This document shows, piece after piece, positions 14,305 through 31,869 of a stretch of 36,129 bases of DNA; within the stretch, counting starts at the first letter, position 1; every line of letters begins with the position of its first letter. Both the position numbers and the translations under genes were made by a program. The DNA comes from Candidatus Fibrimonas sp. (GTDB lineage: Bacteria > Fibrobacterota > Fibrobacteria > Fibrobacterales > Fibrobacteraceae): assembly GCA_031273195.1 (NCBI GenBank), contig JAISSJ010000172.1:1-36129 (forward strand). Direction: 5' to 3'. The notes beneath the pieces are model-generated. The model was not told where the DNA came from, searched no databases, and worked only from the letters and a program-made list of their open reading frames with translations.

Positions 14305-14421
14305 CCTTGCCAAGGGCGGGATTTTTTGCTATATTTGTTAAAATTGGGTTTTTTAGGCAGTTTATGAAGGGATTTAAGGCATTGAAGAAATTGACTTGGC
14401 TGCCTTTGGCGGTAGCTCCTC
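14305..14421 (+). repeat. Leader repeat copy 1: promoter plus first codons
   Basis: First of three homologous segments of about 117 bp. It holds -35 TTGCCA (14307-14312), 17-nt spacer, -10 TATATT (14330-14335), an untranslated stretch of 28 nt, and the first codons MKGFKALKKLTWLPLAVAP. The other copies are at 17167-17283 and 19655-19771. Confidence 0.85.
14307..14335 (+). promoter_or_regulatory. Promoter of the GLUG-repeat gene (leader copy 1)
   Basis: TTGCCA and TATATT spaced by 17 nt, preceded and followed by sequence conserved in the two other leader copies (CCTTGCCAAG, TTTTTTGCTATATTT). The start codon follows 28 nt after the -10, so unlike most genes here this mRNA would have a real 5' leader. 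Confidence 0.65.
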
Positions 14422-16745
14422 GTTTTATTCACCCTTTGGGAAAATCTTTCTTTGTGTTCTTATGCTTTTCTGCTACGCTATCTGCTCAAAACACGGATTG
14501 GTATAATGCAAGCGACACGAAGTTTGAAATTTCCACCGCCGAGCAATTAAAAGGTTTGGCTCAACTGGTTAATGACGGTACAAGCAGTTTCATCGGAAAA
14601 ACAATTACATTAATCGAAGATGTTACGCTCGCCGAGGATTTTATTCCGATAGGTAAAGATTCCGTTTGGAATAAAATGTTTTTAGGCACCTTTGACGGGA
14701 ATGGGCATAGCATATCGGGTCTATCAGTGTCAAACGTAAGAGCTGCGGGTTTATTCGGTTTTAATTGGGGACAAATCAAAAATCTCACAATCAAGGCTAC
14801 AAAAATAAAGGCTACGGCAACATCCGGCAGGGCGTATGCCGGAGTGCTGGCCGGATTTTACAATTCTCAAAGCCCTATAGAGAATTGCTATGTGATTGCC
14901 GATTCTGTTGTTGCATCTGGCAGTGCCGTTTCTGTTGCTGGCGGCTTGGCAGGTTTTATCAGAAGTAAAATATCAAATAGTTATTCTACCGCAAACGTAT
15001 TGGCTATCAGTACAGATACTGATTCCGGTTCTCTTGCCGGCGGCTTGGCAGGCGCTGCGCTTGCCATTGAAAATAGTTATTCCACAGGGAATGTATCCGC
15101 TATCAACACGAAAAGCTCTATTGCTGGCGGTTTGGTAGGCGAAGGCGCAGACATAACATATTCCGGTACCTCTATATCAGAGCTTGCTAGCAGATCTAAA
15201 CTTACAATATTGAACAGTTATTCCACGGGGAATGTATCGGCACAATCTGCTGCCGGTGGATTAGCCGGTGCTACAATTGGATGGACGGAAATCTCAAAAA
15301 GCTATTCTACAGGTAATATATCGGTCAATGGTTCAAGTTTGTCAAACGCAGGCGGCTTGGTAGGTATGATGATGCCCTTGGGCGGGGCTATCGTTATTTC
15401 AAATAGTTATTCCGCAGGGGACGTATCGGCTATTTCCAGTGATAATACATTAAATATGTCTTGGGCTTATTCCGGTGGTTTGATTGGATATGCTAACGCA
15501 AGCGATATTACAAACAGTTATGCAAGAGGAAAAATAAGCGGAAAAACTTCCAGTGATAATTTCGGCGGAATTTTCGGTCGATATACAGGAGGGACGCTTA
15601 CGTCCGTATATTACAATTCGGATGCCACAATCCAGCCATCCGGTCAAGGTTCGCCAGCAGGAATTGAAGCAAAGAGCATGGACGAACTGAAAATGAAAGA
15701 AACATTTGCAGGTTGGGATTTTGAATATGTTTGGGGAATAGAGGAAGCCTCGGTTCCGCCGTTTTTGAATTTTTGGTTTCCGATTTCTAATGATATTGAA
15801 TACTTTAAAATTCTAGACCAAACATATACCGGTTCGCAAATAAGATTCATGCCTGTAATTCGGAAAAAAGACGGTACGCTTTTAACTAAAGGCATAGATT
15901 ATGAGTTGAGCTATGGCGAAAACAAAAATGCAGGCGAAGGAACAATAAATGTTACCGGCAAAAACGCTTATTCCGGCATATCCAAAATTATAACTTTCAA
16001 AATCATTCCGAAAAAGCTCACCGTCATAGGTGCTGTCGCTCAAAACAAAACCTACGATGGCACGGATATAGCAACAATAACGGGAGCAACCCTGAGAGAT
16101 GTCGCAAGCGGAGATGATGTTTTCCTTTTAAATGCCACAATAGGCACATTCGCATCGGCAAATGCAAGCGGAGGAAATGTTTCTGTAAGCACAAATATGC
16201 TTTTAGCTGGGGAATCTGCAACTAATTATTTTTTAGTTCAGCCTGAACTAGTGGCTAGAATAGAGTGGAAATTTTTAAAAAATGATGCAATAGAGCCCAT
16301 AGACGATCAAGACTACACAGGATTTGCCATAGAGCCGGCTATTATTGTGAAAGACAATACAAAAGTGTTAATTCTCGAAACGGATTATACCCTTAGATAT
16401 TCCAACAACATAAATCCTGGCATGGCAACCGTAGAAGTAACCGGCAATGGTAACTATGCAGGCCAAGTAAGAATCAACTTCACAATATCAAGCGATGGTT
16501 CAGTACCTGTTTTCTTTAACATCGAAACAATCAACTCCGCCGTCGCCGCACATAATGCCATCAATCTACAAGTTCAAACCGCCGCTTGTCTGCAAATCTA
16601 TAGTCTAAGTGGCGAACTGAAAAAAACATTGTATTTCAAAAATGGTGTGTATAACGTAACATTCGGAGATTTACCAAAAGGAATGTATATAGCAAAAATA
16701 ATATTTGACAATGAAAAAAAGAAATTAAAAATACCGATTATATGA
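14364..16745 (+). CDS. GLUG-repeat surface protein with YDG-like domains and C-terminal sorting domain
   Basis: 793 residues, predicted secreted adhesin-like protein. The first 20 residues copy the leader of the two downstream lipoproteins; then a second hydrophobic stretch (FFVFLCFSATLSAQ) looks like a working signal peptide. Residues about 90-420 contain at least six GLUG units, seen as alternating GGLAG or GGLVG and NSYSTGNVSA motifs, a beta-solenoid repeat of bacterial adhesins. Then come bacterial-surface modules including a YDG-type unit (KKLTVIGAVAQNKTYDGT) and two units with Y-TG-x-I...DYxLxY...G. The end (LQIYSLSGELKKTLYF...LPKGMYIAKI) resembles a type IX secretion sorting domain. 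An in-frame ATG at 14268 is rejected because it lies in the preceding gene and would translate the promoter. The stop overlaps the ATG of the next ORF by 4 nt. Confidence 0.85.
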   Translation: MKGFKALKKLTWLPLAVAPRFIHPLGKSFFVFLCFSATLSAQNTDWYNASDTKFEISTAEQLKGLAQLVNDGTSSFIGKTITLIEDVTLAEDFIPIGKDSVWNKMFLGTFDGNGHSISGLSVSNVRAAGLFGFNWGQIKNLTIKATKIKATATSGRAYAGVLAGFYNSQSPIENCYVIADSVVASGSAVSVAGGLAGFIRSKISNSYSTANVLAISTDTDSGSLAGGLAGAALAIENSYSTGNVSAINTKSSIAGGLVGEGADITYSGTSISELASRSKLTILNSYSTGNVSAQSAAGGLAGATIGWTEISKSYSTGNISVNGSSLSNAGGLVGMMMPLGGAIVISNSYSAGDVSAISSDNTLNMSWAYSGGLIGYANASDITNSYARGKISGKTSSDNFGGIFGRYTGGTLTSVYYNSDATIQPSGQGSPAGIEAKSMDELKMKETFAGWDFEYVWGIEEASVPPFLNFWFPISNDIEYFKILDQTYTGSQIRFMPVIRKKDGTLLTKGIDYELSYGENKNAGEGTINVTGKNAYSGISKIITFKIIPKKLTVIGAVAQNKTYDGTDIATITGATLRDVASGDDVFLLNATIGTFASANASGGNVSVSTNMLLAGESATNYFLVQPELVARIEWKFLKNDAIEPIDDQDYTGFAIEPAIIVKDNTKVLILETDYTLRYSNNINPGMATVEVTGNGNYAGQVRINFTISSDGSVPVFFNIETINSAVAAHNAINLQVQTAACLQIYSLSGELKKTLYFKNGVYNVTFGDLPKGMYIAKIIFDNEKKKLKIPII

Positions 16746-17146
16746 GCTACCCCATGCCCTCCATCATGGTAAAAGACTACATAGAAAAATACGAATTTGA
16801 AGTTGACGATTTGATGCCCCATCGCTTGCGGCAGATACGCCTGAATTTCAACTTCAATGAGGAACTCGCTTGGGAATGTGATGTTAGTAAAGCGGAAGGA
16901 GCTACGGATGCCTGTGTTGTTTACAAACGCACTCCCGCCTCCAACAAATGGGACACATTGCGCATAGAAAAACACCCAGTTGAAAAGAACGGCCTTTTTA
17001 TCTTTGAACCTTGGAAATACGATTACAACCAGCTGGGCATCATCCAAAAAGACAACCAAAACACAGTCACAATAACCACCGTAAACAAAATAGGCCTCGC
17101 AAATAGCCTTAAATCTGTTTTATTTGTTCATAACACAGACGCTTGA
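16742..17146 (+). pseudogene. Internal fragment of a second giant-gene copy
   Basis: A 134-residue ORF with no signal peptide. Positions 16746-17098 align without gaps to 22493-22845, inside the giant gene (its residues about 648-764); by hand count 327 of 353 bases agree. Homology begins exactly one base after the stop codon of the GLUG gene and ends at NKIGL, after which the ORF runs into unrelated residues. It is best read as a relic of an earlier tandem copy of the giant gene, although the ORF is open and overlaps the preceding stop by 4 nt, so translation cannot be excluded. Confidence 0.8.
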
Positions 17147-17166
17147 CCGAAATTTAACTGGTTGCC

Positions 17167-17283
17167 CCTTGCCAAGAATGGGATTTTTTGCTATATTTAT
17201 AAGTGATAAATTTTTGTGATGTGCTATGAGTGAGTTTAAGGTATTGAAAAAGTTTATTTGGCTGCCTTTTGCAGTGGCTCCGT
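17167..17283 (+). repeat. Leader repeat copy 2: promoter plus first codons
   Basis: Same arrangement as copies 1 and 3: TTGCCA (17169-17174), 17-nt spacer, TATATT (17192-17197), start codon 28 nt further on, then MSEFKVLKKFIWLPFAVAP. Confidence 0.85.
17169..17197 (+). promoter_or_regulatory. Promoter of lipoprotein gene B (leader copy 2)
   Basis: TTGCCA and TATATT at 17-nt spacing, within conserved CCTTGCCAAG and GATTTTTTGCTATATTT sequence shared with copy 1. Confidence 0.65.
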
Positions 17284-18296
17284 TATTGAGTGGGTGTTCT
17301 TTTTTTCTTGATACTAAAGAATATGATTTTATACAAATGGTAGGTTTTTCAAGCGATACAACTGCCATTTTGTTCAGGTATAATTGGGAAAAAACTGAGG
17401 ATTGTTTTGCGCACTTGTGTGGTGGTGATAATTATCTTGATTTGGAGCTTATGCTGGTGGATGTCCGTTATCACAAAGTTCATTGGAAATCTAGAGTAAA
17501 AAATAATTATGGCGAAAATTTTCGGGTTAGACAGTGGAGTGATTCTCTTGTATTTATTGATTACGACGGAAAAATAGGAGAAAACCGTATGTTATGGACG
17601 ATTGGCGACTCTAAACCGCTTAAAGTAAATTTCTCCTTGGAAGGATATGGATTAGAAAATTTTGATGAGAAAACGCTGGATTTGCAAATTCCCCCCAACT
17701 TGGGAATGTTTGATTTATATCAGCAAAGACAGTGGAAAAACGAAACAATTCTTATGTGGAGGGATACTACAAGGACGGGCAATCTCCCTGAATATTTGTT
17801 GCTGAACAGAAAGAATTTTGTTATTAGCGTGTGGCAACCCTCTGCCGAAGAAAAAGAATTGGCAGAAAAAGGTGCGATTTGGGATGGCGAAAAATTTATT
17901 TATTTGGAAAATGAAACATCGGAATCTTGCAAAGCATTTGTTATTTCCGGCAATGGAGATACCTTGCATACAATAGGGCATTATCCTTATATAGAACTTC
18001 AAGAATTTTCTACTGAAGGAAATGTCTTTGATAAACGTTGTGAATTTGGTTTTTTGTTTGCATTTGCAGGAAATCTCATTTCCATACGAGCGATAAATAA
18101 TATAAGCTTGCCGGCAACTCTTCTTCCTAAAGATACTAGCAACATTCCTAATATTTACGGCCTCACTGCAATGGTATTTATTGATAAAAATAAGAGAGAA
18201 TTGCTAAATCCTTCATTTTGGTATGATGGAAGAAAAGAATGGCAGTATGGAGTTGGAAAATTTATAAATTTATCTGGGAATATTACGGAGTATTGA
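17226..18296 (+). CDS. Lipoprotein of the giant-gene cassette, paralogue B
   Basis: 356 residues with a lipoprotein signal (FAVAPLLSGCS, Cys at about residue 23), so probably membrane anchored. No known family. It is paralogous to the 279-residue lipoprotein at 19713: shared points include SDTTAILF, a W..TE segment, LVDVR.H.V.W, QW.DS, LWT.G..KP.KVNF and an identical C-terminal NITEY. The last codons, the GGAG ribosome site and the 1-nt gap to the next ATG are identical in both cassettes. Its downstream partner, the start of a giant gene, is broken after about 44 codons, leaving this lipoprotein orphaned but intact. Lower GC than the housekeeping genes. Confidence 0.75.
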   Translation: MSEFKVLKKFIWLPFAVAPLLSGCSFFLDTKEYDFIQMVGFSSDTTAILFRYNWEKTEDCFAHLCGGDNYLDLELMLVDVRYHKVHWKSRVKNNYGENFRVRQWSDSLVFIDYDGKIGENRMLWTIGDSKPLKVNFSLEGYGLENFDEKTLDLQIPPNLGMFDLYQQRQWKNETILMWRDTTRTGNLPEYLLLNRKNFVISVWQPSAEEKELAEKGAIWDGEKFIYLENETSESCKAFVISGNGDTLHTIGHYPYIELQEFSTEGNVFDKRCEFGFLFAFAGNLISIRAINNISLPATLLPKDTSNIPNIYGLTAMVFIDKNKRELLNPSFWYDGRKEWQYGVGKFINLSGNITEY

Positions 18297-18297
18297 T

Positions 18298-18468
18298 ATG
18301 AAAAAAATTCCTTACCTGATAATTGTTCTTTCCAACATTTTTGTTACGGTTTCTTATAGCAAACCCATGGAAACTTTTGAGAATTATAATGTTGTTTTAG
18401 TGCATGGTGCAGGTGGTAGCTACTTTGGATTACCAGAAACAACATTATTTCATTTAAGTATTTTTTAA
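18298..18468 (+). pseudogene. 5' remnant of a giant hydrolase gene (copy B)
   Basis: 56 codons. The signal peptide and KPMETFENYNVVLVHGAGGS, then YFG, match the start of the 3771-residue protein (GEPMESFKNYNVILVHGAGG). Homology stops after YFG (about 18429); the last 12 or so codons are unrelated and end at TAA 18466-18468. The minus-strand Lit-like gene ends inside this tail (18454). A GGAG site at 18287-18290 precedes the ATG. This is the beginning of a once complete second giant gene, truncated where the Lit-like gene now sits. Confidence 0.85.
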
Positions 18469-19470
18469 AGATCTTTTTAATAATTCTATTCTATCCAGAT
18501 ACTCATAAAATAAATCTTTCGCAGTTTCAACAAGGGTATTGGGTTTGTAAATTTTTAGATTTTGAAATAACGTACTATTCATAACAAAGTATTCATCTAA
18601 AATTATACAGCCAAAACGATATAAGTAATACTCACATACTTGGTCGGTAATTCCAACAAATTCAAGCACATTTCCTAAACGGACATCCAAATCTGGATGA
18701 TAGACCTGATTGATTTTTTCTGGGCCTTTAACAAGAAATAGAGGGGATATAAAAGCCATAAGTATAGAAACTCCCTTCAGCATTCTTTGCGGTTGGTCGG
18801 TTTCTTCATTCATTAAAATTTCTAAAGCCTGATTGTCTGCTTCTTTTTCACAAACAAGTATGAAATTCTTATCTTGCTCAGTAGTTTTGTCATTTGTTTT
18901 TTCCTTTATTTTAATCATTTCTTCACAATGACAGTTAATTATATGGGAAGCTTCGTGCCAAAGTAATATGCCAATCGCATCCAAGAAAATAGTATTTACT
19001 TTTTCTGCATAAATTTTTTCTTTTTCGGACATATATGCATATGCTTTTGGATTTGGGTTTGGTAATTGAATATCCCAATCCGTTAATTCATTAAGTAAGG
19101 AAAATGCCCAGTAACGCAAGAGACTTGCTCGTTTGATGACGGTCATATCTATTTCATTTTTTTCACCATATTTTATGTTTAATTCATATTTCATTTGACC
19201 TTCCTCAAATTTTACCCAATGAGAATAGATAAAAGCCCACATAAATTCCAAAAAACGTTCTTGAATTTGAATTGTTTTTTCTTTACAAATTACAAATGGA
19301 GATTGGATTATTTTACTTCCTATTTCATAATTGAAATGAGGCTCTATGTTACCATTTTTTATTTCTTCTAAGACTCTATTACAAAAAGATTTATTTTTCT
19401 GTTCAAAATGAAATGTTATGTTATGCTCCAAGGCTCTAATTGGGGAGGGTCTAGGTAATTCTTCTTGCAT
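18454..19470 (-). CDS. Lit-family (peptidase U49-like) phage-exclusion metalloprotease
   Basis: 338 residues. E. coli Lit is a zinc protease that cleaves EF-Tu in response to a T4 capsid peptide and aborts infection. Features in line with that family: FLEFMWAFIYSHW (residues about 73-85), PNPKAY before the core, IFLDAIGILLWHEASHIIN with the zinc motif HEASH at 172-176, then CEKEADNQALEILM with the likely third ligand Glu in EKEAD (207-212), and a C-terminal helical part with HPDLDVRLGNV. Length slightly exceeds Lit (about 300). A strong AAGGAG ribosome site (19478-19483), low GC and opposite strand set it apart from neighbours. It interrupts giant-gene copy B, so it was probably acquired. Substrate unproven; other HExxH proteases remain possible. 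Confidence 0.75.
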   Translation of the reverse strand: MQEELPRPSPIRALEHNITFHFEQKNKSFCNRVLEEIKNGNIEPHFNYEIGSKIIQSPFVICKEKTIQIQERFLEFMWAFIYSHWVKFEEGQMKYELNIKYGEKNEIDMTVIKRASLLRYWAFSLLNELTDWDIQLPNPNPKAYAYMSEKEKIYAEKVNTIFLDAIGILLWHEASHIINCHCEEMIKIKEKTNDKTTEQDKNFILVCEKEADNQALEILMNEETDQPQRMLKGVSILMAFISPLFLVKGPEKINQVYHPDLDVRLGNVLEFVGITDQVCEYYLYRFGCIILDEYFVMNSTLFQNLKIYKPNTLVETAKDLFYEYLDRIELLKRSLKNT

Positions 19471-19654
19471 TTATATTCTCCTTGTTTAGCATCCAACACA
19501 AAGTCCATTATGAACAATCGTATAGATTTTATCATAAAATACAAAATTATTGGATATTACATCCTACATTCTGTAAGAGGATAACATCCAAAGTTTAAAA
19601 TTACCCCTAAAGTGCCATTTTTGCTCCAAAATCACAATTTTTAGTTTTTAGCCC

Positions 19655-19771
19655 CCTTGCCAAGAGCGAGTTTTTTTGCTATATTTGTGAATATCGTTTT
19701 TTGTGATATGTTATGAATGAATTTAAGACATTGAAGAAATTGATTCGGTTACCTTTGGTGGTGACTCTGTT
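19655..19771 (+). repeat. Leader repeat copy 3: promoter plus first codons
   Basis: TTGCCA (19657-19662), 17-nt spacer, TATATT (19680-19685), start codon 27 nt later, then MNEFKTLKKLIRLPLVV. The AT-rich 185 bp before it (19471-19655) holds the Lit-like ribosome site and a pair of short motifs, GGATATTACATCC and GGATAACATCC, of unknown meaning. Confidence 0.85.
19657..19685 (+). promoter_or_regulatory. Promoter of lipoprotein C and the giant gene (leader copy 3)
   Basis: TTGCCA and TATATT at 17-nt spacing. As no other promoter is evident before the giant gene and the lipoprotein stop is 1 nt from its ATG, this promoter probably drives an mRNA of about 12 kb. Confidence 0.65.
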
Positions 19772-20552
19772 GCAGAGTTGTACTGGTTGTACTAGCGTTG
19801 TTGATAGTGGCTCTGATTTAATAGGGATAGGCTATGCAAGCGACACAACTGCTATTTTGTTTTATGAGCTGTGGGAAACGACTGAAAGCTTTAATATTCC
19901 CGTTAGGAGCAATGTCACCAGCTACTATGGCTGGGAGCTTAAGCTGGTGGATGTCCGTTTTCATAATGTTTATTGGGAAGCTCAGGTAGAGCAGGGGAGA
20001 TCTAATACTGCTATATTATATAGTAGCCAATGGAATGATTCCTCTATGCTTGTAGATCTTACGGGATCTGGGTATTGGCTGTGGACAGTTGGCAACAAAA
20101 AACCACAAAAGGTTAATTTTAATTGGAATACTGAAATGAAAGATGATGTGAATGGCGGAGATTATAAGAATGGTTGGTTATTAGGACGTGGAAGAGGTTT
20201 TCAACTTCGCCCTTGGAAAAATGATTCTGTCTTATTATATTCTAAAACTAGACAAGCTATTATAGATTCCCAAACCATGACTGTGAATGACTGGTCTCCA
20301 ACTAGTGAAAATATTTGGGTAAATGCTTGTGATGATTTTTGGTGGGGGAAAAATGGAGGGGTATGCTTGTTAGATAAATCTGATTATGTCGCTTTCTTTT
20401 CGGAAAAAGGAGATACGCTTGGTAATTTTACTTATACTCAAGAAAGAGTAACTATCTATGGCTCTCAATGGGCTAATGATAGGATGCCTTCGTTTTGGAT
20501 TTTTGGTAAAAGAGAATTTTTAGATTCACTCAGAAATATTACGGAGTATTGA
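19713..20552 (+). CDS. Lipoprotein of the giant-gene cassette, paralogue C
   Basis: 279 residues, no recognised family. The N terminus has a lipoprotein-type signal (LPLVVTLLQSCTGC; the anchored Cys is probably in LLQSC). It is a diverged paralogue of the 356-residue lipoprotein at 17226, sharing ASDTTAILF, LVDVRFHNVYW, QWNDSS, LWTVGNKKPQKVNF and the terminal NITEY. It sits in the same position relative to a giant gene: TGA, one base, then ATG, with GGAG at 20543-20546. Tight coupling suggests the two products work together, for example as surface anchor, chaperone or protective partner, but this is inference. Confidence 0.75.
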   Translation: MNEFKTLKKLIRLPLVVTLLQSCTGCTSVVDSGSDLIGIGYASDTTAILFYELWETTESFNIPVRSNVTSYYGWELKLVDVRFHNVYWEAQVEQGRSNTAILYSSQWNDSSMLVDLTGSGYWLWTVGNKKPQKVNFNWNTEMKDDVNGGDYKNGWLLGRGRGFQLRPWKNDSVLLYSKTRQAIIDSQTMTVNDWSPTSENIWVNACDDFWWGKNGGVCLLDKSDYVAFFSEKGDTLGNFTYTQERVTIYGSQWANDRMPSFWIFGKREFLDSLRNITEY

Positions 20553-20553
20553 T

Positions 20554-23500
20554 ATGAAGAAAATGTTTTATTTAGTGTTTGCATTATCTCAGGTTTTCCT
20601 TGCTCTTTCTTATGGCGAACCTATGGAAAGTTTTAAGAACTATAATGTGATTCTAGTGCACGGTGCAGGTGGTCGCTACTTCGGTATGGATTGCGATAAC
20701 GATTCAAAAATTAAAGAAGCTTGGACATATTTAGAACCGAATCAAGATACTACAAAAACAGAGCAAGAAAATTACTTAGACATAATCGGCGGTTATGGCG
20801 ATAAAGCTTTACCTTTTATGAAAGATCGCGCGAGTTCCGCTGAAGATATGGATTTAAACAATGATGGGTTGCGCCATTGGTTGACCGAAGATATATTTGA
20901 AAACGATAAATCCGTAATTTACCTGCAAAGACCATTCACAAATCCAGCAAATTCCCCCATTAACAATGCAAAAGAATTGGGAGACCGCAAATGGCAAGTA
21001 AATAACAAATGTGAGTTTCGCCGCTCCCTTATAGAAGAAGCGCAGGAAGTGAGGGCAAAAGGCAGAGAGAATTTGGGCAATTTACGTAATAAAGGTGTAG
21101 AAAATCGCAATGCGCTTCCCCCTTCCCGCAACATACTCATTGCCCACAGCATGGGCGGCGTAGCCTCCCGCGAATACGTGCAGGGAACTGGCTACAACAA
21201 CGATGTTGACAAAATAATCACCCTTGATTCGCCTCACGAGGGCACAGGGGCTTTGAACTTGCTTGTGGAAGTAAGCGACTTGGAAACCCGTCTTAAGATT
21301 GCCGCCCTCAATGCCGACGGAACTACGTATTTAGCTACCGCAGGCCTTCTTGTGGCAGCAGCCAAGGATATGCCCGCAGCTACAATTGCTCTATACAGCC
21401 TTATACCTTCACTAATAACAACAGGCGGCGATGTGACTACTTATGGCCTTGGACAGATATTGATAAAAGTATTGGACAAGCATTACCAGCCAGATGATCC
21501 TTTAACGCCCTACATAGACCCTACCCGTAGCAACAGCGATATTGACGGCATAATCAATTTGAAGAACCGCTCATACACGGACAGCCTTCCCATGATGCGT
21601 TTGCTTTACGGCGAAAACAGCATGACCTTCTCCGACCCGGCTATTCTGAACGCTGCCAATATGTCAACTTTTCCAATACCTATCCCCAAAGCGTTGATGT
21701 CATCGTATTACAATTTATATTCCCAGTATTACGGCGGCGGCAGCCGAACCGTTAATTTCATCAATTCGGCATCGGCGTATGCCGCCGGTATGATATTTGG
21801 TGTTACTATAGGTGAACACGGTACTACCCTAATCCCGCAATGGTCGGGCATGGCAAAAGACACCAAGTCCTTGAATGACCCTAGCGCAGATGTAATCAAG
21901 CGGTCTTATAACGGCCATGTTAATGGATCACTTGACGATGTGATAAAAATTATTGCCGCGGAAATAAATGCTATAGCAATACTTATTGTCGCTGTCAATG
22001 AAATACCCTTTCTTCCCCATTCAGTTGCGTCATCAATAAAAACCGGCATAGCCTTTGCCGCAAGCCCTGCGTTGGCTGCGGAGATTGGCGTAGCGATTAC
22101 CACTGGCATTATGGATTTGGCGGATTCCCATGAGGCTCCGCTTTTGAAAGAATATCAGAATAAATGGTTCGGTGCATCCAACAGTTATACAAAAATCACC
22201 GGCGGGCAAGAAACTTATAAACCCTACCAAATGGAAGAATTCCTGTACGAAAAGCCCTTTGTAAACGTGCATGTAAAAAGCAGTTATGGCCCTGACTGGA
22301 AAGACCAGAAATCAGATACCTTGGGCTTATATATAGGAGATTCTCTCAAGCCAATGCATATTGACAGCAGCCTTTCCACCTCTCTCAAATTCAAATCCTC
22401 TGCCGACTGGGAAACCGTGGGCGCAAAGAAAGAACGCTGGGCAATAACAACAGGCGTAGGCAATGAAAAGATACCCATCCGCCACGCAGACCGCTACCCC
22501 ATGCCCTCCATCATGGTAAAAGACTACATAGAAAAATACGAATTTGAAGTTGACGATTTGATGCCCCATCGCTTGCGGCAGATACGAATAAACTTCAATT
22601 TCAACGAAGATTTAGCATGGGAATGCGATGTTAGTAAAGCGGAAGGGGACAATACAGCCTGTGTTGTTTACAAACGCACTCCCGCCTCCAACAAATGGGA
22701 CACATTGCGCATAGAAAAACACCCAGTTGAAAAGAACGGCCTTTTCGTCTTTGAACCTAGCAAATACGATTACAACCAGCTGGGCATCATCCAAAAAGAC
22801 AACCAAAACACCGTCACAATATCCACCGTAAACAAAATAGGCCTCAAAAACAGCCAACGCTTCTTCTACCTGTTCAGAGCAACCGCAGACTTGCTAGAAC
22901 CCGCCTGGCCGCTCAGAAATATCAAAACAAGTAGCCTAAACGGATTCGAAGCCTATATAAGCACTCTGGGCTACCAAAACATTGTAGCTCTCGGCGGCAA
23001 AGAATATTTGTCACAAGACCCACAGTATAATGAAAACTATGAATACACCGATTCTACCGCAATGTCCAACCCATTGCAGGTTCAAAACGGCTATTTGCTG
23101 AAATCACTCGGCGATTACAGCAAATTCCACAGCAAAGAAGGCAGATACGTTTGGCAAACAACAATAAAAACCGGCGATACTTCAGACCCGCTAAAAAGTT
23201 CAATTTCAGACATGACAATCCCCTTTACCCTAGACACAACACCGCCCAAAACAAACCTCAACCCGGAAAACGATATATTCAACGCAGATTCAACAACATT
23301 CCTAGCCCGCTTTGAAAATGACTCCGAAATTGACGAATCCCTCAGACTTGTCGCACTCTTCCTGAAAAACTCATACGGGCAAACAATCGCTACCGCAAAA
23401 TTCACGGAAGTACTCGCTTCAAGTTTCAGCATCAAATTGCCCGATTTCAAAAATACCCAAAACCAAGCCATGAACAATCTGCCGGATGGCAAATACAAAA

Positions 23501-26500
23501 TAGTTTCTTATGCCTTTGACGGCTCAACAAACTCTTTGGAACAGTATAACCTGCTCAACAACGTTATCGGCGGCAGCGCCTCGCTCTACGACCTGTTCGA
23601 AAATAACAAAGTCAAACAAGGCATAATCGCAAGCAGAGATACCGCAGATTTTATAGTAGATTCACAAGCTCCCGAATTCGATTTCTCCTTGTCCGAAAGT
23701 ATCTTGAACCTTGGCAAACTTTTAAAAATAACTTTGAACGTCTCCGACTCAAATGGAAAAGATTCCGCTACGGTGCGTTTTTCCGTTTCTTTTGCCGAAG
23801 GAAAAGATACCTTACGGCTGGGTGATACCCTGCTTCTGCGAAACGGAATTCGCAGCAAGGAATGGAATGAATTGGAAAGCATGGCTATTCCTGATGGCGA
23901 TTACGAAGTTTTCATTGACGTTTGGGATGAATCCGGCAATCATAAGCGGAAAAAATATGACGGACTCTTGCGCATAGACCGCACACCGCCTGATATAGTT
24001 GGAGTTTGGTCTGATATATTTATTTCTACGGATTCTTTGGACAATTATTCCGCAAGCATGGAGGTAAAACAACAAGGCTACGAAAAGCATATTTCGGAAA
24101 TGCAATGCCGCTACCGCATAAATAACGGCGAATGGCAAAATATAGCGGAAAAGTCGTCTAAAAAAATAGATACTCTTAGATTTAATATGGATAGGAACAT
24201 TGTCGGAAATGAACACGGCAAAAGACACCTGGAGGCCGGTTGCACGGATTGGGCGGGGAACTTCGCTTCAAAACTGGATTTGTTCCACGTGGGTGCCCGC
24301 TTTCCCGTTATAATTCATCCGAAAGATGTTTCTGTGGAAGAACCGGTAATAGCGATTCGCGGCTCCGCTCCAACACAATCTTCAGACAATTTGCCCGGTT
24401 CTTACCAACTTGAGTGGCGCAGAGAAGGGGATACCTCATGGCAAACAAATGGCATGGACGTTGGAGCGAGCAGACGTTATTCTGCGGATTTGGCTTGGGT
24501 TTCCAAAAGCACCCAACCCGCAGACGAAACGGATTTAGGCTTTTTTGATATGAGAGGCCTTGAAGGCGGTAACTATGAATTGCTTCTCTCCGTTAGAAAT
24601 TGCGACTCCTGCAAGTGGCGCAAAGACACGGTTTCCTTCCATTATTGGCCAAAAAGCGACACGGTTAAAGAAAAATTGCTTTTCACTAAGTCCAATGACA
24701 CATTTACTCCAGGCGAAGGCTCATTGTCCCTCTCTCTGCAAATTGCAGATACGGAAAGCAAAGATTATCGCGCAAATATTTATGCTCATGATTCAAAAGG
24801 CAATGCTTTGTTTTTCGCTTCTACAAATTCATTGACTGCCTCGCCTTATGTCGGCAAATCGGATTCCTTGGAAGGAAATGGAGTATGGTTCTGGAGCGAA
24901 AACGATGTTTATTATGTGCGTTGGAAAGGCTTGCCCAAAGACGAGGAAATAGCTATACATTATACAAAGGGAAAATTTGATGAAAGCATCTGCGGCAATG
25001 GCTGTTCTCTTAAAGATACTGCGCTTGCTTCCAATGAAGAAGCCCTTGGCAATGCAAACCAAAACATAGCAAGAGAAATTCTCACTCCGCCGGGTCTTGA
25101 CAAGGCTATGATTTTTAACGGAACTTCGGGAGAATTCAGTTTTAAGAGCGATAACGCGCTTTGGCTCAAATTGAAAAAGAACGCTGATACTACGCATAAA
25201 GTTTATTTGGGCAAAGGCGGCAGCCCATTGGAATATGTTGTCAAGTACACGGGAACCGGCATTCAAATAAAAAAAGATTTCTACGGTTTTTACTATAAAT
25301 GGAACGGTATGTCTTCAACCGGTCGCTATCCCCAAGGCAAGGCCGTCACTTTTTACGCTGAGGCTTTGGAAAATATAATAGGCGGCGAGGTTCTTCGCGA
25401 TTCCATTAATGTTTTGCTCACAATGCCGGATTTAAAAATAATTTCCGATACCGCTGCTTTGGATGCCTTTTATGTTATAAGAAATAGCGCGGATTCGGGT
25501 TCTGTTTTGGGCAATAAAATGATTCATTACGGCATTGCCGGACGAGATGCGATTGTTAACGCATATATTAAAAAAGCGAACGGCAGTATCGTTAAGAATT
25601 TATTGACTAACGCTCCCCATGCAGCTTCCGGTTCAGACAAAGCCTATCCGCTTTCTTGGAACGGCGAGGACAATAACGGGCATTTGGTTTTGGAGAGTGG
25701 GAGTTATTATTTTGAGTTAGTAGCTACGGAAAGCGGTGTTTCCGGCAGTCCGCAATCCGATATTCTGAGGCGGAATTTTGAAATATCCCTGGCTCCGGGT
25801 GTGCATTATGTGAAAGACGAGCCGGGAGAAACACCTGTATCTTCCCTTTCGCTTTTGCACGCAAAACCTGTGAATGCTGCTTATTGGCAATATGCTCCGG
25901 CAGCGGATTATTTGGTGGAGGCAAATGCGGTAGGTAAATGGCTTCCGGATTCTTTGCGCAATATTGAGGTTGAATGGACTGCAGGCGGAACGCAAAATAT
26001 TTACGGCTATCCGCCGCAGAGGTACAGTTTGGCGGTAAAGCGGCAGCGGGAAAATTTGCCGTTGGTGATAGTTGCACAAGCCAAATTAGCAATTGTAAAA
26101 TTATATTGTGCAACAGGAAATAAAGAAAATCAGTATATTGACACTATTTTATGGCGCAATACTTTGCAATTCGATAAAAATAGTTTGTCAAATTACATAT
26201 ATGTATCTTTTGATGCTGATGATTATGGAGATGTTGGCAGGGGATTTGCGGAAGATACAACTTTTAATAAAATAATTTTATATGCATTTTTATTAAAAGA
26301 TGCTGAAGAAAAAAATAGTAAAAATTTAATAGAAAATGTAAGTCCTGTTTGGAAGAAAGAAATTAACTTACCAAGACCTTCCGATAATCACAGATATGAA
26401 AACGATATAAATAACCGTATAGATTCATTGAGCAGTAAAGATATCAGTTGCGAGCCTATTGAACCTACCGCTTCTTCAGAGGGGCAGTTTTGCACATATG

Positions 26501-29500
26501 CAAAAGATGAAAATGGAAAGTTGAAAGACCCAGATAATTATAACCCAAATAAAAATCTTTTCGATATAATTATTAAACCTATGAATGAATATTTCTATGA
26601 AGACAGAGGTAAAATTCATAATGATTGCATTTCCCGGAGTGCTAGGAGATTTCAATTTATGGATTTAGAAATAAAATTCACCATTCCCGATAAAGATTAC
26701 TGGAACGTTGAATACGGCTACGACAATTTGGTAAACCGCACGATAAGGTTTGACCAGACAAACAAAACCATGTATGGCGATAACGGTTATTTAAAAACTT
26801 TGCACGATAGCACAAATATTCCTGTCAGAGATAGTATTTTCTTTGATGGTGAAAATTGGCATTCAAATTACAATTATGGTCTGCTCACTCCATTTGAAAT
26901 GCACAGATACCCTTTCGTTTCGGTTAGCAAGCTTCCAAGCAACAACGCTTTCGCATTCCCTGACGAAACGGCCGACCCCAAATACCAATATCCCAGCTAT
27001 TACCATGCAAAATACTATAATTTTGATAATGGAGGCACACGATTCCGGGCATTGATAGCACCGCAAAATCAAATGGCATCAGTAGCATTATATTCGGATG
27101 GAGATCCAGTTTCCACCAAGACAGCTTTTGGCCATGGAACAGTAAACATATACGTCTCAATGGACGCCGCCCCGGAATCATTCCAAAAAGACATGGCACA
27201 GATTGCCTATCCCGCCAAAGACTGGACTCCCCAGAATACGTGTCCAAGCCATAATACTCCATGGCTGGATTCAGCTAAAAACGAAGCCGACTGCAAAAAA
27301 TTTTATAAAGCCGGTTCAAAAATTCATTATGACGTAGGTGATTTTACCGATGATGAATGGAAAGAAGCTATGCTAACAAATAGCGGCGATATACAGGTCA
27401 TAGCCAATATCGGAAATTCCGCAAAACCTCTATCACCCTTTGCCACGCTAGGAAACCCCAACGAAAACCAATCCATTTGCGGAAATTTATTTTCCATGAT
27501 GCCTTCCAACTACGATAACAATAAGTTTTATATAGAAACAGGTTGCGATTCATACCTTTCGGGAGTTGAAGCAACATACACCCCAAAAATCATGAACACA
27601 GCCGATACCACGCTATACAGCTTTGCCAATAACTCTTTATACATAAACGCTCTCGATTGGAATAATACTTTTGTTTTACCGCAGAAAAAGTACCCTGAGC
27701 GTGATTCCTCCATAACCCTGCAAATAGGAAATGAATTCCAAGACGAATGGGTAAAAGAACTTAAATTGACAAGCGCAAAAGCAAATTATTTGAATAGCAG
27801 CGAACACACGCATTTCAAAGCAAACCATGAAGGCGACAGCCTTATTAAATTATCGGTAAAAAGTCCTCCTGACTCCGTACGCCCCTCCGAATTCATAGCG
27901 GTAAAAGGCACTGTTCCGAAAAATTCAAACTGGAAGCTGTCTTACCTTAACGGCGGTGCCTTGCATACCATAGCAAAAAAACAAACGGATTCCTTATTTG
28001 AGTGGTTTAACGTAAATACGCTTCAAGGCAACACATCCATCCTTTTGCAATGGGGCGGCGAAGGCAATCTCCTGAACATTCGCAAGCTGGACCTGGATAT
28101 AGGCCACGAAGTGACGCAAAATAACGGCGGCACTGTTCAATCCCTGTTTGGCGAAGTGAGCGTTTGGTTCCCGCCAGGCTCCATGGAAGATACCATAGTC
28201 ACCGTGCGCACGGCAGATGCCAAAGACTATGCCTTTACCACCTCCAACAACACTGCCCTCGTAGGTCCGGTAATAGAAGTGCTTCCGGCCAAAAAATTCT
28301 CTGATACGCTTGCTCTCCCCCGCATAAAAGCCCGCATAACACATCAGGAATTGGATGCCATGAGTTTATCTCCGGACGATGTGCGTTTATACAAAATAGA
28401 TACGGAAAACAAAAAATTCGTTGCACTTGAAAATATGCTCAGGGGCTTTGACAAAGAACCTGATTGCCTGACCAATACGGTTTATAATAAATGCGAAGGT
28501 TATAATGAAAATTGGTCATATCTTTTAATATCAGCGGAAACACGTTCATTCTCCATATTCGCCGTTCTTGACACGGCAACAGCAAAACGGCTCAACGAAG
28601 AACCTGCAAGCAAACCCGATTCGGTTCCCTCTCAAATAATATGCTCCATTCCCCAAGACACACTTTGGCTCGGCTTGGACAATGGCTACCTTGAAATGTT
28701 CCAGGAATGCAACCAGCTTGTGATGGGAACCCTGCAACTCCGCAAAAACGGCAGCATTGTAACAGAACGCAGCCAAGTATCCACAGAACCAATGCGCTGG
28801 GACGGACGCATAGGCTTGAATAAAATCTCAAACGGCGAATACACTTCACGCTACATTACAGTTTCTCCATTAGGCTCGGAAACCCAAACACTAGGCCCAA
28901 CCATACTCACCGACCCAGCAAGGCCGCAAATTTCCGACTGGAGCATAGAAGAAACCTCCGAACTCCTGGACCGCATATTCACCGTGAACGCAAAGGCAAA
29001 AGACGATGAGTCCGGCATAAACAGCGTATTATTGAAATGGGATTTGGGCGGAGTAACAGATTCAGTTTCCTTAATTGCGGATTCTGCCGGCTATGTCTCA
29101 TATAAAATAACCTTGAACAGAAACAGCCTTTCCCAATGCCTCGGTTGCAAATTAACGCTTTCGCTTATAGCCGAAGATTTTGGTCACAACAATGCTAGAA
29201 AAGAATGGACTTCCGGCAGCCTTTATCCGTACCCCGCCGATCTCGCGCTTTGGTACCCAGCCCTTGAAGGCGGTGGCAGAACAGCACGGGAATACACCAA
29301 AACCGGGCACGACTTGGATTTGCTGATGCAAACCCCGTGGCACTCCGCTTCGGGATTGTATTTCAAAGAAAGCGAAGACAAAGCTCCCGGCAAAGGGCAG
29401 GTGAATTTCGGCAGCACGGACTCATATACGCTGGAAGCATGGCTCCGCCCCGGATACCCTGCAATTTCCGCTTGGCAACGAGTTTTGGGCTTCAATTCCG

Positions 29501-31869
29501 TCACAGGCAAACGTATAGAATTGCAGGTAAATGGCGAAGACATACGCCTTTTGGATGGCTTTGAAACATGGACTGTTCCGAATGTGCTGTTGCGATCCAA
29601 AGAATGGACTCATTTGGTTGTAGCAGTGGATGCGAACTACGCCCACTTCTATGCAGACGGCGAACTGGCGGGAACCGTCACCGCTGTGCCTTCTGAGCGT
29701 TTGTGGTATGGCAATTTCTCTTTGGGAACCGAAGAAAACATCCCATCCTTTACAGGGCATATTATGCAGGTTCGTTTCTATAAAAGGGCTTTGGGAGCCT
29801 CCGAAGCTCAAGCTCTGTTCAGAGGGGTGGGTGCGGGAGAAGATTCCCGTGTTGAAATTACGCTTGCCAACGAACTTGACTTGAAAATATATGGCTTTGA
29901 ACGCGGCTTCAGTTGCGCCGTTCCAGGCTCGTCCTATTGGGGAACGCCAGGAGAAGCATCCTTGCCTTGGAAGGTTTGGGTGGTCAAGGGAGGTTCTTAC
30001 AGAGTGTTCTTGTATGCCCGTTCAGCGCAGCCCGGAAACAAAATTGTAAAAGCGGGGCTTGGGGGTTCTCTGCAATCAGGAACGGCAGCCTTGGAAAGCG
30101 TTTGGCGGCCTATAGAATTACAGGGAATAAACTTGCCTTTGCAAGCGGGATTCAACAATTTGGAACTGCGCATACCAGCCGGATTGGATATTGCCGGAAT
30201 TGCCATAAGCGATAACCCCGGCTTGCTGCCTTCGCAAATTTCATGGAAATCCGAAGGTGCCATAACCAATTCTTCTGTGGTTGATGCTCAAGTCCGTTTT
30301 GAAGGCTACCCGGAGCCTTCCATGATTCGCCCTCGCATCCGTTTGCAAAATACCGGCTCCACTGCAATATACGGGCCTAAAGTACGCTATTATTTCCGAG
30401 GGGAAGACCCGGCCCAGGTTCAAGCATCTAAATTCTATCCGCAAGAAGGAGAGCTTGCGGTTCGCCAGGAAGGGGACAATCTAGGCTATGCGGAGTGGAG
30501 CTTCCCGGAGACCACCGTATTGCCTCCGGGCCAGCTTCTTTTCTGGGGAGAAGGCCCGCATTTCGGTTTGCACAATACAAATTATATTCCTTGGGTTGTT
30601 AAGGATGACCCTTCTTTTACAGATATCATTGTGCTGGATGCGGAGAACAGGGTTTTGAGCGGTTCCTGCTTTGAAAATGAAGCTCCGCTTATCACTGTGC
30701 CCATCGTACAGGTTCTTGCAAGAGATTCCCGCGCAAACGACAATCAGGCAAGCCAGCTATATATAAAATTGGAAAACATAGGGCAAATACCCATACGTGA
30801 TTACGAGGTGCGCTATTCATTCTATGTTTCCGGCGGCATTGCTCCGGTTCTCGATGTGTATGATATGCAGGGGTTGTCTGCCTCGTTGAAAAATTTGGGT
30901 TCCGGTCGCTGGCAGGTGGCAATTACGGGGAGTGCTTCGCTTGGCCCCGGAATATCCTGGGCTAATCCGGCGCAGTTTGCGTTGCATTTGCCGAATTGGC
31001 AAGCAGGATGGCAAACCGGAGACGATCCCTCTTACGAAGGCCTTTCTGGTGAATGGGCTCTCGCAAAAGGCGTGGAGGTCTTTGATGCCGCAGGCAACCG
31101 TATTTACGGCAAAGAACCGGTTTGGAGTTCTTCTTCCGAATCTTCCTCAAGTTCTGTCGCATCTACATCTTCTGCTCAGGTTCGTGTAATGGCGAAGGAA
31201 ACCAAAGCCCATGAATCCAATGCTTCTGCTGTTCGCTTCTATGTAGAAAATCTTGGTGCGGAGAGCATATCCGGCTTTGAGGTTCGCTATTGGTTCTCGG
31301 TATCTTCAGGGAAAAATTTGGAGTACCAAGTATATAGCAATACCCAGTTCTTGGCAAATATGGTAAAAGAGACTGCTAATTTATACAGTGCTCGCTTCGT
31401 TTATGCCGGAAGTCCTTTGGCTCCAAATGCAAAAACAGAATGGGGCGAGGGGCTTGAACTCTCTGTTCATCACAGCGACTGGTCTGCATGGGATAAAGAA
31501 AGCGATTTCTCCCATAAGGGGTTGGGAATTGATTTCTCCGAGGCTCATTACATAACGGTTTATGACAGCGAAGGCAATATCATTTGGGGAACCGAACCGA
31601 TGATTCCGGAAGAAATGGATTATCCCGCCATTGAATTCACCCGCCAGCCTGACGGTTTGCTGGTTTCCGTTCACGAGCTTTCCAATATAAGGCTGGACTT
31701 GGTGAATGCGGCAGGTATGCCGCAGAAATTCTTGTACCAAGGTGTTTTGAATGTCGGCGAGCATTTGATTCCTATGGACTGGTCTGCGGTGGATCTGGCG
31801 AGGACATACCTTGTAGCCCGTTTAAACGGACGAATTTCCAGTCAGCTTCTTTCTAAATTGGGGAATTGA
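20554..31869 (+). CDS. Giant secreted alpha/beta-hydrolase, Ig-like, LamG and CBM3-like surface protein
   Basis: 3771 residues, predicted secreted. Signal peptide 1-20. Residues about 30-520: lipase/PGAP1-like alpha/beta hydrolase with oxyanion VHGAGG (35-40), nucleophile Ser199 in AHSMGG and TLDSPHEG at about 223-230. Residues about 880-1250 hold Ig-like units marked by DTTPP, DSQAP and DRTPP; about 1644-1729 a FlgD-like Ig unit (SWNGEDNNG); about 2520-2673 a ZU5-like segment (GEVSVWFPPGSM); about 2896-3093 a LamG/concanavalin-like domain (HLVVAVDANYAHFYADGEL); about 3100-3226 a CBM-like beta module. Three CBM3-like repeats follow at about 3228-3369, 3383-3523 and 3543-3683, each with a ...N-G...I...VRYYF-type strand, a Ser-rich linker lying before the third. 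The last 80 residues resemble a type IX sorting domain. Coupled to lipoprotein C. The likely role is a surface-bound, polysaccharide-binding esterase or lipase; substrate unknown. Confidence 0.85.
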   Translation: MKKMFYLVFALSQVFLALSYGEPMESFKNYNVILVHGAGGRYFGMDCDNDSKIKEAWTYLEPNQDTTKTEQENYLDIIGGYGDKALPFMKDRASSAEDMDLNNDGLRHWLTEDIFENDKSVIYLQRPFTNPANSPINNAKELGDRKWQVNNKCEFRRSLIEEAQEVRAKGRENLGNLRNKGVENRNALPPSRNILIAHSMGGVASREYVQGTGYNNDVDKIITLDSPHEGTGALNLLVEVSDLETRLKIAALNADGTTYLATAGLLVAAAKDMPAATIALYSLIPSLITTGGDVTTYGLGQILIKVLDKHYQPDDPLTPYIDPTRSNSDIDGIINLKNRSYTDSLPMMRLLYGENSMTFSDPAILNAANMSTFPIPIPKALMSSYYNLYSQYYGGGSRTVNFINSASAYAAGMIFGVTIGEHGTTLIPQWSGMAKDTKSLNDPSADVIKRSYNGHVNGSLDDVIKIIAAEINAIAILIVAVNEIPFLPHSVASSIKTGIAFAASPALAAEIGVAITTGIMDLADSHEAPLLKEYQNKWFGASNSYTKITGGQETYKPYQMEEFLYEKPFVNVHVKSSYGPDWKDQKSDTLGLYIGDSLKPMHIDSSLSTSLKFKSSADWETVGAKKERWAITTGVGNEKIPIRHADRYPMPSIMVKDYIEKYEFEVDDLMPHRLRQIRINFNFNEDLAWECDVSKAEGDNTACVVYKRTPASNKWDTLRIEKHPVEKNGLFVFEPSKYDYNQLGIIQKDNQNTVTISTVNKIGLKNSQRFFYLFRATADLLEPAWPLRNIKTSSLNGFEAYISTLGYQNIVALGGKEYLSQDPQYNENYEYTDSTAMSNPLQVQNGYLLKSLGDYSKFHSKEGRYVWQTTIKTGDTSDPLKSSISDMTIPFTLDTTPPKTNLNPENDIFNADSTTFLARFENDSEIDESLRLVALFLKNSYGQTIATAKFTEVLASSFSIKLPDFKNTQNQAMNNLPDGKYKIVSYAFDGSTNSLEQYNLLNNVIGGSASLYDLFENNKVKQGIIASRDTADFIVDSQAPEFDFSLSESILNLGKLLKITLNVSDSNGKDSATVRFSVSFAEGKDTLRLGDTLLLRNGIRSKEWNELESMAIPDGDYEVFIDVWDESGNHKRKKYDGLLRIDRTPPDIVGVWSDIFISTDSLDNYSASMEVKQQGYEKHISEMQCRYRINNGEWQNIAEKSSKKIDTLRFNMDRNIVGNEHGKRHLEAGCTDWAGNFASKLDLFHVGARFPVIIHPKDVSVEEPVIAIRGSAPTQSSDNLPGSYQLEWRREGDTSWQTNGMDVGASRRYSADLAWVSKSTQPADETDLGFFDMRGLEGGNYELLLSVRNCDSCKWRKDTVSFHYWPKSDTVKEKLLFTKSNDTFTPGEGSLSLSLQIADTESKDYRANIYAHDSKGNALFFASTNSLTASPYVGKSDSLEGNGVWFWSENDVYYVRWKGLPKDEEIAIHYTKGKFDESICGNGCSLKDTALASNEEALGNANQNIAREILTPPGLDKAMIFNGTSGEFSFKSDNALWLKLKKNADTTHKVYLGKGGSPLEYVVKYTGTGIQIKKDFYGFYYKWNGMSSTGRYPQGKAVTFYAEALENIIGGEVLRDSINVLLTMPDLKIISDTAALDAFYVIRNSADSGSVLGNKMIHYGIAGRDAIVNAYIKKANGSIVKNLLTNAPHAASGSDKAYPLSWNGEDNNGHLVLESGSYYFELVATESGVSGSPQSDILRRNFEISLAPGVHYVKDEPGETPVSSLSLLHAKPVNAAYWQYAPAADYLVEANAVGKWLPDSLRNIEVEWTAGGTQNIYGYPPQRYSLAVKRQRENLPLVIVAQAKLAIVKLYCATGNKENQYIDTILWRNTLQFDKNSLSNYIYVSFDADDYGDVGRGFAEDTTFNKIILYAFLLKDAEEKNSKNLIENVSPVWKKEINLPRPSDNHRYENDINNRIDSLSSKDISCEPIEPTASSEGQFCTYAKDENGKLKDPDNYNPNKNLFDIIIKPMNEYFYEDRGKIHNDCISRSARRFQFMDLEIKFTIPDKDYWNVEYGYDNLVNRTIRFDQTNKTMYGDNGYLKTLHDSTNIPVRDSIFFDGENWHSNYNYGLLTPFEMHRYPFVSVSKLPSNNAFAFPDETADPKYQYPSYYHAKYYNFDNGGTRFRALIAPQNQMASVALYSDGDPVSTKTAFGHGTVNIYVSMDAAPESFQKDMAQIAYPAKDWTPQNTCPSHNTPWLDSAKNEADCKKFYKAGSKIHYDVGDFTDDEWKEAMLTNSGDIQVIANIGNSAKPLSPFATLGNPNENQSICGNLFSMMPSNYDNNKFYIETGCDSYLSGVEATYTPKIMNTADTTLYSFANNSLYINALDWNNTFVLPQKKYPERDSSITLQIGNEFQDEWVKELKLTSAKANYLNSSEHTHFKANHEGDSLIKLSVKSPPDSVRPSEFIAVKGTVPKNSNWKLSYLNGGALHTIAKKQTDSLFEWFNVNTLQGNTSILLQWGGEGNLLNIRKLDLDIGHEVTQNNGGTVQSLFGEVSVWFPPGSMEDTIVTVRTADAKDYAFTTSNNTALVGPVIEVLPAKKFSDTLALPRIKARITHQELDAMSLSPDDVRLYKIDTENKKFVALENMLRGFDKEPDCLTNTVYNKCEGYNENWSYLLISAETRSFSIFAVLDTATAKRLNEEPASKPDSVPSQIICSIPQDTLWLGLDNGYLEMFQECNQLVMGTLQLRKNGSIVTERSQVSTEPMRWDGRIGLNKISNGEYTSRYITVSPLGSETQTLGPTILTDPARPQISDWSIEETSELLDRIFTVNAKAKDDESGINSVLLKWDLGGVTDSVSLIADSAGYVSYKITLNRNSLSQCLGCKLTLSLIAEDFGHNNARKEWTSGSLYPYPADLALWYPALEGGGRTAREYTKTGHDLDLLMQTPWHSASGLYFKESEDKAPGKGQVNFGSTDSYTLEAWLRPGYPAISAWQRVLGFNSVTGKRIELQVNGEDIRLLDGFETWTVPNVLLRSKEWTHLVVAVDANYAHFYADGELAGTVTAVPSERLWYGNFSLGTEENIPSFTGHIMQVRFYKRALGASEAQALFRGVGAGEDSRVEITLANELDLKIYGFERGFSCAVPGSSYWGTPGEASLPWKVWVVKGGSYRVFLYARSAQPGNKIVKAGLGGSLQSGTAALESVWRPIELQGINLPLQAGFNNLELRIPAGLDIAGIAISDNPGLLPSQISWKSEGAITNSSVVDAQVRFEGYPEPSMIRPRIRLQNTGSTAIYGPKVRYYFRGEDPAQVQASKFYPQEGELAVRQEGDNLGYAEWSFPETTVLPPGQLLFWGEGPHFGLHNTNYIPWVVKDDPSFTDIIVLDAENRVLSGSCFENEAPLITVPIVQVLARDSRANDNQASQLYIKLENIGQIPIRDYEVRYSFYVSGGIAPVLDVYDMQGLSASLKNLGSGRWQVAITGSASLGPGISWANPAQFALHLPNWQAGWQTGDDPSYEGLSGEWALAKGVEVFDAAGNRIYGKEPVWSSSSESSSSSVASTSSAQVRVMAKETKAHESNASAVRFYVENLGAESISGFEVRYWFSVSSGKNLEYQVYSNTQFLANMVKETANLYSARFVYAGSPLAPNAKTEWGEGLELSVHHSDWSAWDKESDFSHKGLGIDFSEAHYITVYDSEGNIIWGTEPMIPEEMDYPAIEFTRQPDGLLVSVHELSNIRLDLVNAAGMPQKFLYQGVLNVGEHLIPMDWSAVDLARTYLVARLNGRISSQLLSKLGN
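22493..22845 (+). repeat. 353-bp segment duplicated at 16746-17098
   Basis: Ungapped match to 16746-17098 with 26 mismatches by hand count. The mismatches cluster in two patches (around 22588-22637 and 22649-22664) with perfect identity over long stretches on either side, including the first 94 bases. Confidence 0.9.

Follow-up and report, generated by a model that had tools for sequence, protein, structure and literature searches.

The window analysed here is contig C172 (JAISSJ010000172.1; 36,129 nucleotides) of a 60%-complete MAG of Candidatus Fibrimonas, and it was compared with relatives from Candidatus Fibrimonas and Fibrobacter. It carries a giant gene on the plus strand (20554–31869) that is open over 3771 codons without internal stops and is, as an earlier note on this DNA had claimed, the single whole giant gene present. 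The predicted secreted protein of 3771 aa is made up of a signal peptide, a PGAP1/lipase-like head (aa 1–599; 20554–22350), an Ig-like adapter that is the most conserved stretch (aa 600–815; 22351–22998) and a long body with a LamG domain, two CBM_3-like stretches and a tail-like C-terminus. On its 3′ side lies a conserved small gene, LolA-like by eye (31872–32541, plus strand), which is frameshifted in the window compared with relatives; the apparent frameshift follows a run of A and may be a sequencing error or a real break. Upstream of the giant gene, and adjoining it, is the gene for lipoprotein C (19713–20552, plus strand, 279 codons), which begins within a cassette leader (19653–19785, plus strand) consisting of promoter-proximal sequence and the first lipoprotein codons. 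This leader is 82% identical to a leader in relative G002.

A second lipoprotein gene, B (17226–18296, plus strand), starts within its own leader (17165–17284, plus strand; 77% identical to leader C), and its frame is indeed open over all 356 codons that had been claimed for it. Both B and C encode lipoprotein-type signal peptides, and they share 36% identity; the lipoprotein profile matches B with an E-value of 6e-51, with B itself among its rows. Lipoprotein B is joined to relic B (18298–18468, plus strand), a giant-gene 5′ end of 56 codons. The first ~45 of these are recognizable as giant codons (62% aa identity), after which the sequence, broken just past an HGAGG motif, is unrelated; at the nucleotide level identity is 75% over 173 nt, lipoprotein end included. 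The junction AATATTACGGAGTATTGATATGAA, i.e. NITEY, stop, one base and ATG, is identical between B and C over 24 nt, and a GGAG ribosome-binding site sits within the last lipoprotein codons of both. Together, the position of the GGAG site and the stop-N-ATG arrangement suggest translational coupling, so that lipoprotein C is probably coupled to the giant gene. The open frame of B, the giant-gene 5′ end joined to it and the identical junction bear out the earlier description of copies B and C.

Upstream of cassette B lies relic A (16746 to ~17108, plus strand), an internal fragment of a giant-gene adapter corresponding to giant aa ~647–767. It matches giant nt 22493–22855 with 92% identity over 363 nt, and thus runs slightly beyond position 17098, where it had been thought to end. 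Its end region is the same as that of fragment ends in other genomes. Within the genome both relics are specific to the window locus, and are therefore not chance matches. The leader occurs in only three copies in the assembly. The third, leader A (14305–14413, plus strand), which the earlier note had overlooked, includes the first ~19 lipoprotein codons and is 80% identical to leader C, and we therefore conclude that three cassettes were once present. Leader A now drives into a different gene (14364–16745, plus strand), encoding a GLUG/YDG-repeat protein (Pfam Glug, YDG) with a T9SS-type tail; TIGR04183 scored above its cut-off in the genome search and 22.8 against 23 bits with the protein alone. 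Here the first 19 lipoprotein codons continue in frame into the GLUG coding sequence, whose stop codon abuts relic A. The protein is thus read from a captured lipoprotein start codon (MKGFKALKKLTWLPLAVAP joined to its own signal region), and its alignment with the closest GLUG homolog of the genome begins only at residue 30. The GLUG gene has evidently replaced lipoprotein A and hydrolase head A, capturing their start signals. Immediately before leader A is a 5′-truncated ATPase gene (13522–14283), whose DUF4143 protein matches only the C-terminal half (210–429 of 439) of PADLOC PDC-S01. Elsewhere in the window a single 1192-codon ORF (6798–10376) looks by eye like MetX (homoserine acetyltransferase), MetW and GuaA (GMP synthase) fused end to end, which is unusual.

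The interval between relic B and leader C is occupied by a low-G+C gene on the minus strand (18454–19470) for a Lit-like (Peptidase_U49) phage-exclusion protease with a HEASH motif (PADLOC Lit 2e-17; Pfam U49). Its match to NF007238 has an E-value of 8.5e-33, yet reaches 114 bits against a 274-bit cut-off. In relatives, defence or restriction genes are often found between the orphan and the active unit: an EcoRI-type methylase with a GmrSD/HNH nuclease in L072, with genes similar by sequence in L073 and L085, a C5 methylase in L082, a GmrSD/HNH gene in L081 and an N6 methylase in L086. Incoming DNA may tend to insert at the cassette locus. Genes for Lit/Peptidase_U49 phage exclusion and restriction are cargo of the locus and lie outside the proposed effector-immunity pair.

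We next consider the features of the encoded proteins. The head scored 27.6 bits against PF07819 (cut-off 24.3), and the HSMGG nucleophile elbow (AHSMGG in the window) hardly varies across the 26 rows of the head alignment. The structural model of the head had a pLDDT of 67.6, and its closest PDB matches by Foldseek were bacterial lipases and PGAP1, although these were weak (E-value 3e-3, low TM). We therefore predict that the head is a PGAP1-like or lipase-like alpha/beta hydrolase. The adapter model consists of beta strands and gave Ig-like matches, and LamG and the two CBM_3-like stretches of the body were found with Pfam. The lipoprotein family gave no significant match in Pfam, NCBIfam or PADLOC; its model is all-beta with WD40/propeller-like matches, at moderate confidence. 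With regard to export, inspection of the giant points to a Sec-type signal peptide. The T9SS translocon protein SprA was found in 25 of the 25 genomes searched, window genome G000 included, and the window genome encodes 28 TIGR04183 T9SS tails. The giant itself had no match to TIGR04183, the model of the T9SS tail (Por_Secre_tail domain), and its C-terminus resembles a T9SS tail by eye only.

A scan of the genome collection yielded 28 loci; a head or adapter is present in 17 of 41 genomes. The same layout, [lipoprotein + truncated hydrolase]n, lipoprotein, giant, recurs across Fibrobacter and Candidatus Fibrimonas, and displaced orphan modules form arrays in about 20 loci; F. intestinalis, a culturable Fibrobacter, is among the species with such arrays. 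For example, the G006 array consists of a lipoprotein, a head stub of ~50 aa, a lipoprotein and a giant, and G016, L076 and L080 each hold two orphans and an active unit. The single-contig genome G042 contains a broken unit, a lipoprotein with a truncated head, a lipoprotein and a 3902-codon giant. Since the same array is present in a single contig, assembly collapse is ruled out as the general cause of the relics. Three further observations concern the distribution of the family. Fibrobacter-like cassettes occur in two MAGs titled Paludibacteraceae and Bacteroidales (L073, L086), by misbinning or transfer. A more distant version (L128; G001:C107, 3689–10202) has two lipoproteins of the cassette-lipoprotein family, each followed by another large or small secreted protein with a weak head match only. 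In L047 and L055, from two genera, the orphan units neighbour gyrB-like genes and have an identical type of head-to-leader junction, which suggests a shared old insertion place.

Most orphans stop within the first ~785 of the 3,700–4,100 giant codons. The head ends fall into four clusters, at aa ~40–48, 201–217, 237–248 and 743–785, each at or beside a conserved motif (HGA, HSMGGVASREYV, SPHEGTGALNM and the adapter end, respectively). In G014, G022, L076, L080, G042 and G049, stubs ending at the third site continue directly into the leader of the next unit and its ribosome-binding site. Body scraps reaching aa ~943–1054 remain in only a couple of orphans (to aa 1054 in G020 C102), suggesting a longer ancestor for these. 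Frameshifts were detected in relics of G004 and G042, and in one orphan lipoprotein, copy 1 of G004.

Comparison of the giant with those of close relatives showed that identity steps up at aa ~600, the boundary between head and adapter. As in polymorphic toxin systems, a variable domain is exchanged on a conserved carrier: in three pairs of loci the bodies are 75–91% and the heads 38–39% identical. In L075 and L077 the identities are 91% for the body, 39% for the head and 30% for the lipoprotein; the corresponding values are 89, 38 and 28% for L072 and L073, and 75, 39 and 30% for L080 and L085. The converse case is found in L072 and L077, with heads 73% identical and lipoproteins and bodies both 48%. 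Aligned as DNA, L075 and L077 match at 81% in the flank upstream and at 96% beyond the start of the adapter; in between, similarity is confined to short patches, which indicates a swap at one locus. The body clades (support 100) were rejected by the head alignment, with AU p-values of 4.8e-6, 4.4e-6 and 1.3e-5. Cassette exchange is thereby documented in the sequences of the relatives. In the window, cassette C and G006 share 66% identity in the body and 42% in the head, as a swap would leave them, but this body clade was not rejected by the head tree (AU p-value 0.19); a head swap in the window itself is suggested by analogy with the relatives.

The gene adjacent to the head is co-inherited with it, although it lies upstream instead of downstream as in polymorphic toxin systems. 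Lipoprotein and head distances were correlated with a Mantel r of 0.80 across 37 cassettes and 0.82 across 21 active ones (0 of 2000 permutations), in comparison with 0.30 for lipoprotein and body and 0.19 for head and body. Lipoprotein similarity thus tracks the head and hardly the body, which indicates that the lipoprotein is exchanged together with the head. The Mantel figures are Pearson-based, and by rank (Spearman) lipoprotein and head correlate weakly within the actives (0.20); the link is therefore carried by closely related pairs. One exception is L082, whose head is 59% identical to that of L073 while its lipoprotein is only 28% identical. This mismatch arises because the L082 head is a mosaic, with aa 1–225 79% identical to L081 and aa 226–520 74% identical to L073, indicating recombination near the third head-end site.

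We then asked how the orphan lipoproteins evolve. The dN/dS of orphan-orphan pairs is 0.20–0.23, a figure that may partly reflect an earlier period of activity, as some of the divergence may predate orphaning, and that of active-active pairs is 0.25–0.36. The earlier note had proposed dN/dS for lipoprotein B versus C; the value, 0.47, is unusable because dS is 1.4 and identity 36%. Three genomes that are at least 99% complete (G022, G054 and G062) encode an intact lipoprotein of 297–323 codons next to a truncated head, but no giant to match it, the absence resting on a body search in G022 and on a head/adapter search in all three. One orphan lipoprotein, in L095, shares 83% identity with an active one from another genome, that of L075, and G022 and G049 share the same orphan lipoprotein (96% identity) with head lengths of 258 and 829 aa. 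These results argue that orphan lipoproteins are kept by selection while their heads are lost. The idea that the lipoproteins merely lag behind in decay is thus contradicted. Of the earlier picture of tandem cassettes at different stages of decay, the tandem cassettes with broken giants proved real and family-wide; decay of whole cassettes describes them poorly, as the ends cluster and the lipoproteins are under selection.

Taken together, we consider it probable that the locus is a mirror image of a polymorphic effector-immunity system, with an N-terminal lipase as the 'toxin', an upstream lipoprotein as its immunity protein and orphans kept upstream. The giant would be a surface or secreted carrier, whose exchangeable lipase-like head would act on the envelopes of rivals, presumably on a lipid substrate. 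The upstream lipoprotein, probably translation-coupled to the giant, would be the cognate immunity protein that neutralizes the head in the envelope. A new lipoprotein-head unit would replace the old one by recombination, through the leader on the 5′ side and the adapter (aa ~600–780) on the 3′ side. Displaced units would stay upstream; their heads are truncated and therefore presumably harmless, and their lipoproteins would be retained by selection as orphan immunity against relatives still carrying the old head. In the window, cassette C would be the active unit, B a candidate orphan immunity gene followed by 56 codons of a head, and A a cassette whose lipoprotein and head were lost to the GLUG gene. 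If the giant carries a C-terminal export signal, this would force the order of N-terminal toxin and upstream immunity.

The known properties of polymorphic toxins do not all apply. Displaced orphan modules are present, as in such systems, but the variable part is not C-terminal; it spans aa 1 to ~600. We therefore class the locus as working like a polymorphic toxin system and not as a standard member. In addition, all heads belong to one hydrolase superfamily, whereas the toxin folds of classical polymorphic toxins are varied, and this counts against the polymorphic-toxin reading.

Several other explanations were weighed. The lipoprotein could help a secreted lipase to fold, activate it or anchor it in the membrane, the array then consisting of tandem paralogues that lose their giants. 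Dedicated membrane foldases exist for lipases of some bacteria, and the lipoprotein adjoins the head, is probably coupled to it in translation and is co-inherited with it. However, intact lipoproteins are under selection where there is no giant and only a truncated head, and the all-beta, propeller-like model argues against a helical Lif-type foldase, which makes a helper role unlikely. Closest to the view of the earlier note is neutral decay: whole cassettes would be duplicated, and the giant, at 11 kb ten times the length of the lipoprotein gene, would break first for its size alone. Giants are large targets, and the frameshifted relics of G004 and G042 and the remaining body scraps in G020 agree with it. 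Against it stand the orphan lipoprotein dN/dS of ~0.2, the recurrent truncation points, the stubs that in several genomes are joined directly to the following leader, and lipoproteins that persist in genomes without giants. Simple duplication and decay was rejected on the orphan dN/dS and the giant-free genomes, and we hold neutral decay in general to be quite improbable.

Alternatively, the giant might be a cellulose-binding surface protein whose head is an esterase or lipase used in nutrition, with a lipoprotein that protects the producer only and a diversity that reflects substrates. The CBM_3-like stretches and LamG of the body would suit this role, and Fibrobacter has been proposed to export plant-degrading enzymes through T9SS (PMC6851124). 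The exchange of head and lipoprotein on near-identical bodies and the retention of lipoproteins without their giant are instead signatures of antagonism, and a nutritional function appears very improbable to us.

The effector-immunity reading finds its closest parallel in CDI and Rhs orphan modules (PMC4927057, PMC3967940), in which a conserved giant carrier likewise bears an exchangeable toxin-immunity unit and tandem displaced modules keep a piece of the carrier, with retention proposed for immunity. There, the toxin is C-terminal, immunity is downstream and orphans trail; here, the head is N-terminal, the lipoprotein is upstream and orphans precede the giant, retaining start signals and losing the distal part of the head. 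The TANFOR toxins of Bacteroidetes (PMC7073777) are also large proteins of T9SS-bearing bacteria, proposed as T9SS substrates, with adjacent immunity genes. They differ in their C-terminal toxins, downstream immunity and N-terminal TANFOR domain, for which the giant gave no match in the NCBIfam scan. T6SS lipase effectors (Tle; Tle1, PMC13133936) similarly pair a lipid-active envelope toxin, which is a prediction for the present heads, with an adjacent immunity gene, but they are T6SS-delivered and are not heads of surface proteins of 3,700–4,100 aa; no family match links the lipoprotein to Tli proteins. Tandem, non-identical immunity paralogues shuffled by recombination are known for T7SS EsaG (PMC9484751), and orphan immunity proteins of Serratia Rhs are thought to protect against non-self toxins (PMC10539506). 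Both involve other proteins, another secretion system and another gene order, whereas the orphans described here usually drag a head stub along.

Our literature search turned up no account of interbacterial polymorphic toxins with such a layout in Fibrobacterota. Members of this phylum are key cellulose degraders of the rumen and the termite gut. We lean, by a narrow margin of confidence, towards a mirror-image toxin class in these gut and rumen cellulose degraders, with a T9SS-type C-terminal export signal, an N-terminal toxin and a heritable row of immunity genes whose disarmed heads record past weapons. The effector-immunity reading accounts for an otherwise puzzling annotation, in which intact lipoproteins are followed by gene stubs. 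If true, the locus would be a candidate kin-discrimination weapon for Fibrobacterota, an N-terminal toxin, too, could be exchanged together with its immunity gene, and the turnover of weapons could be read from the way in which the orphans of an array are ordered and truncated.
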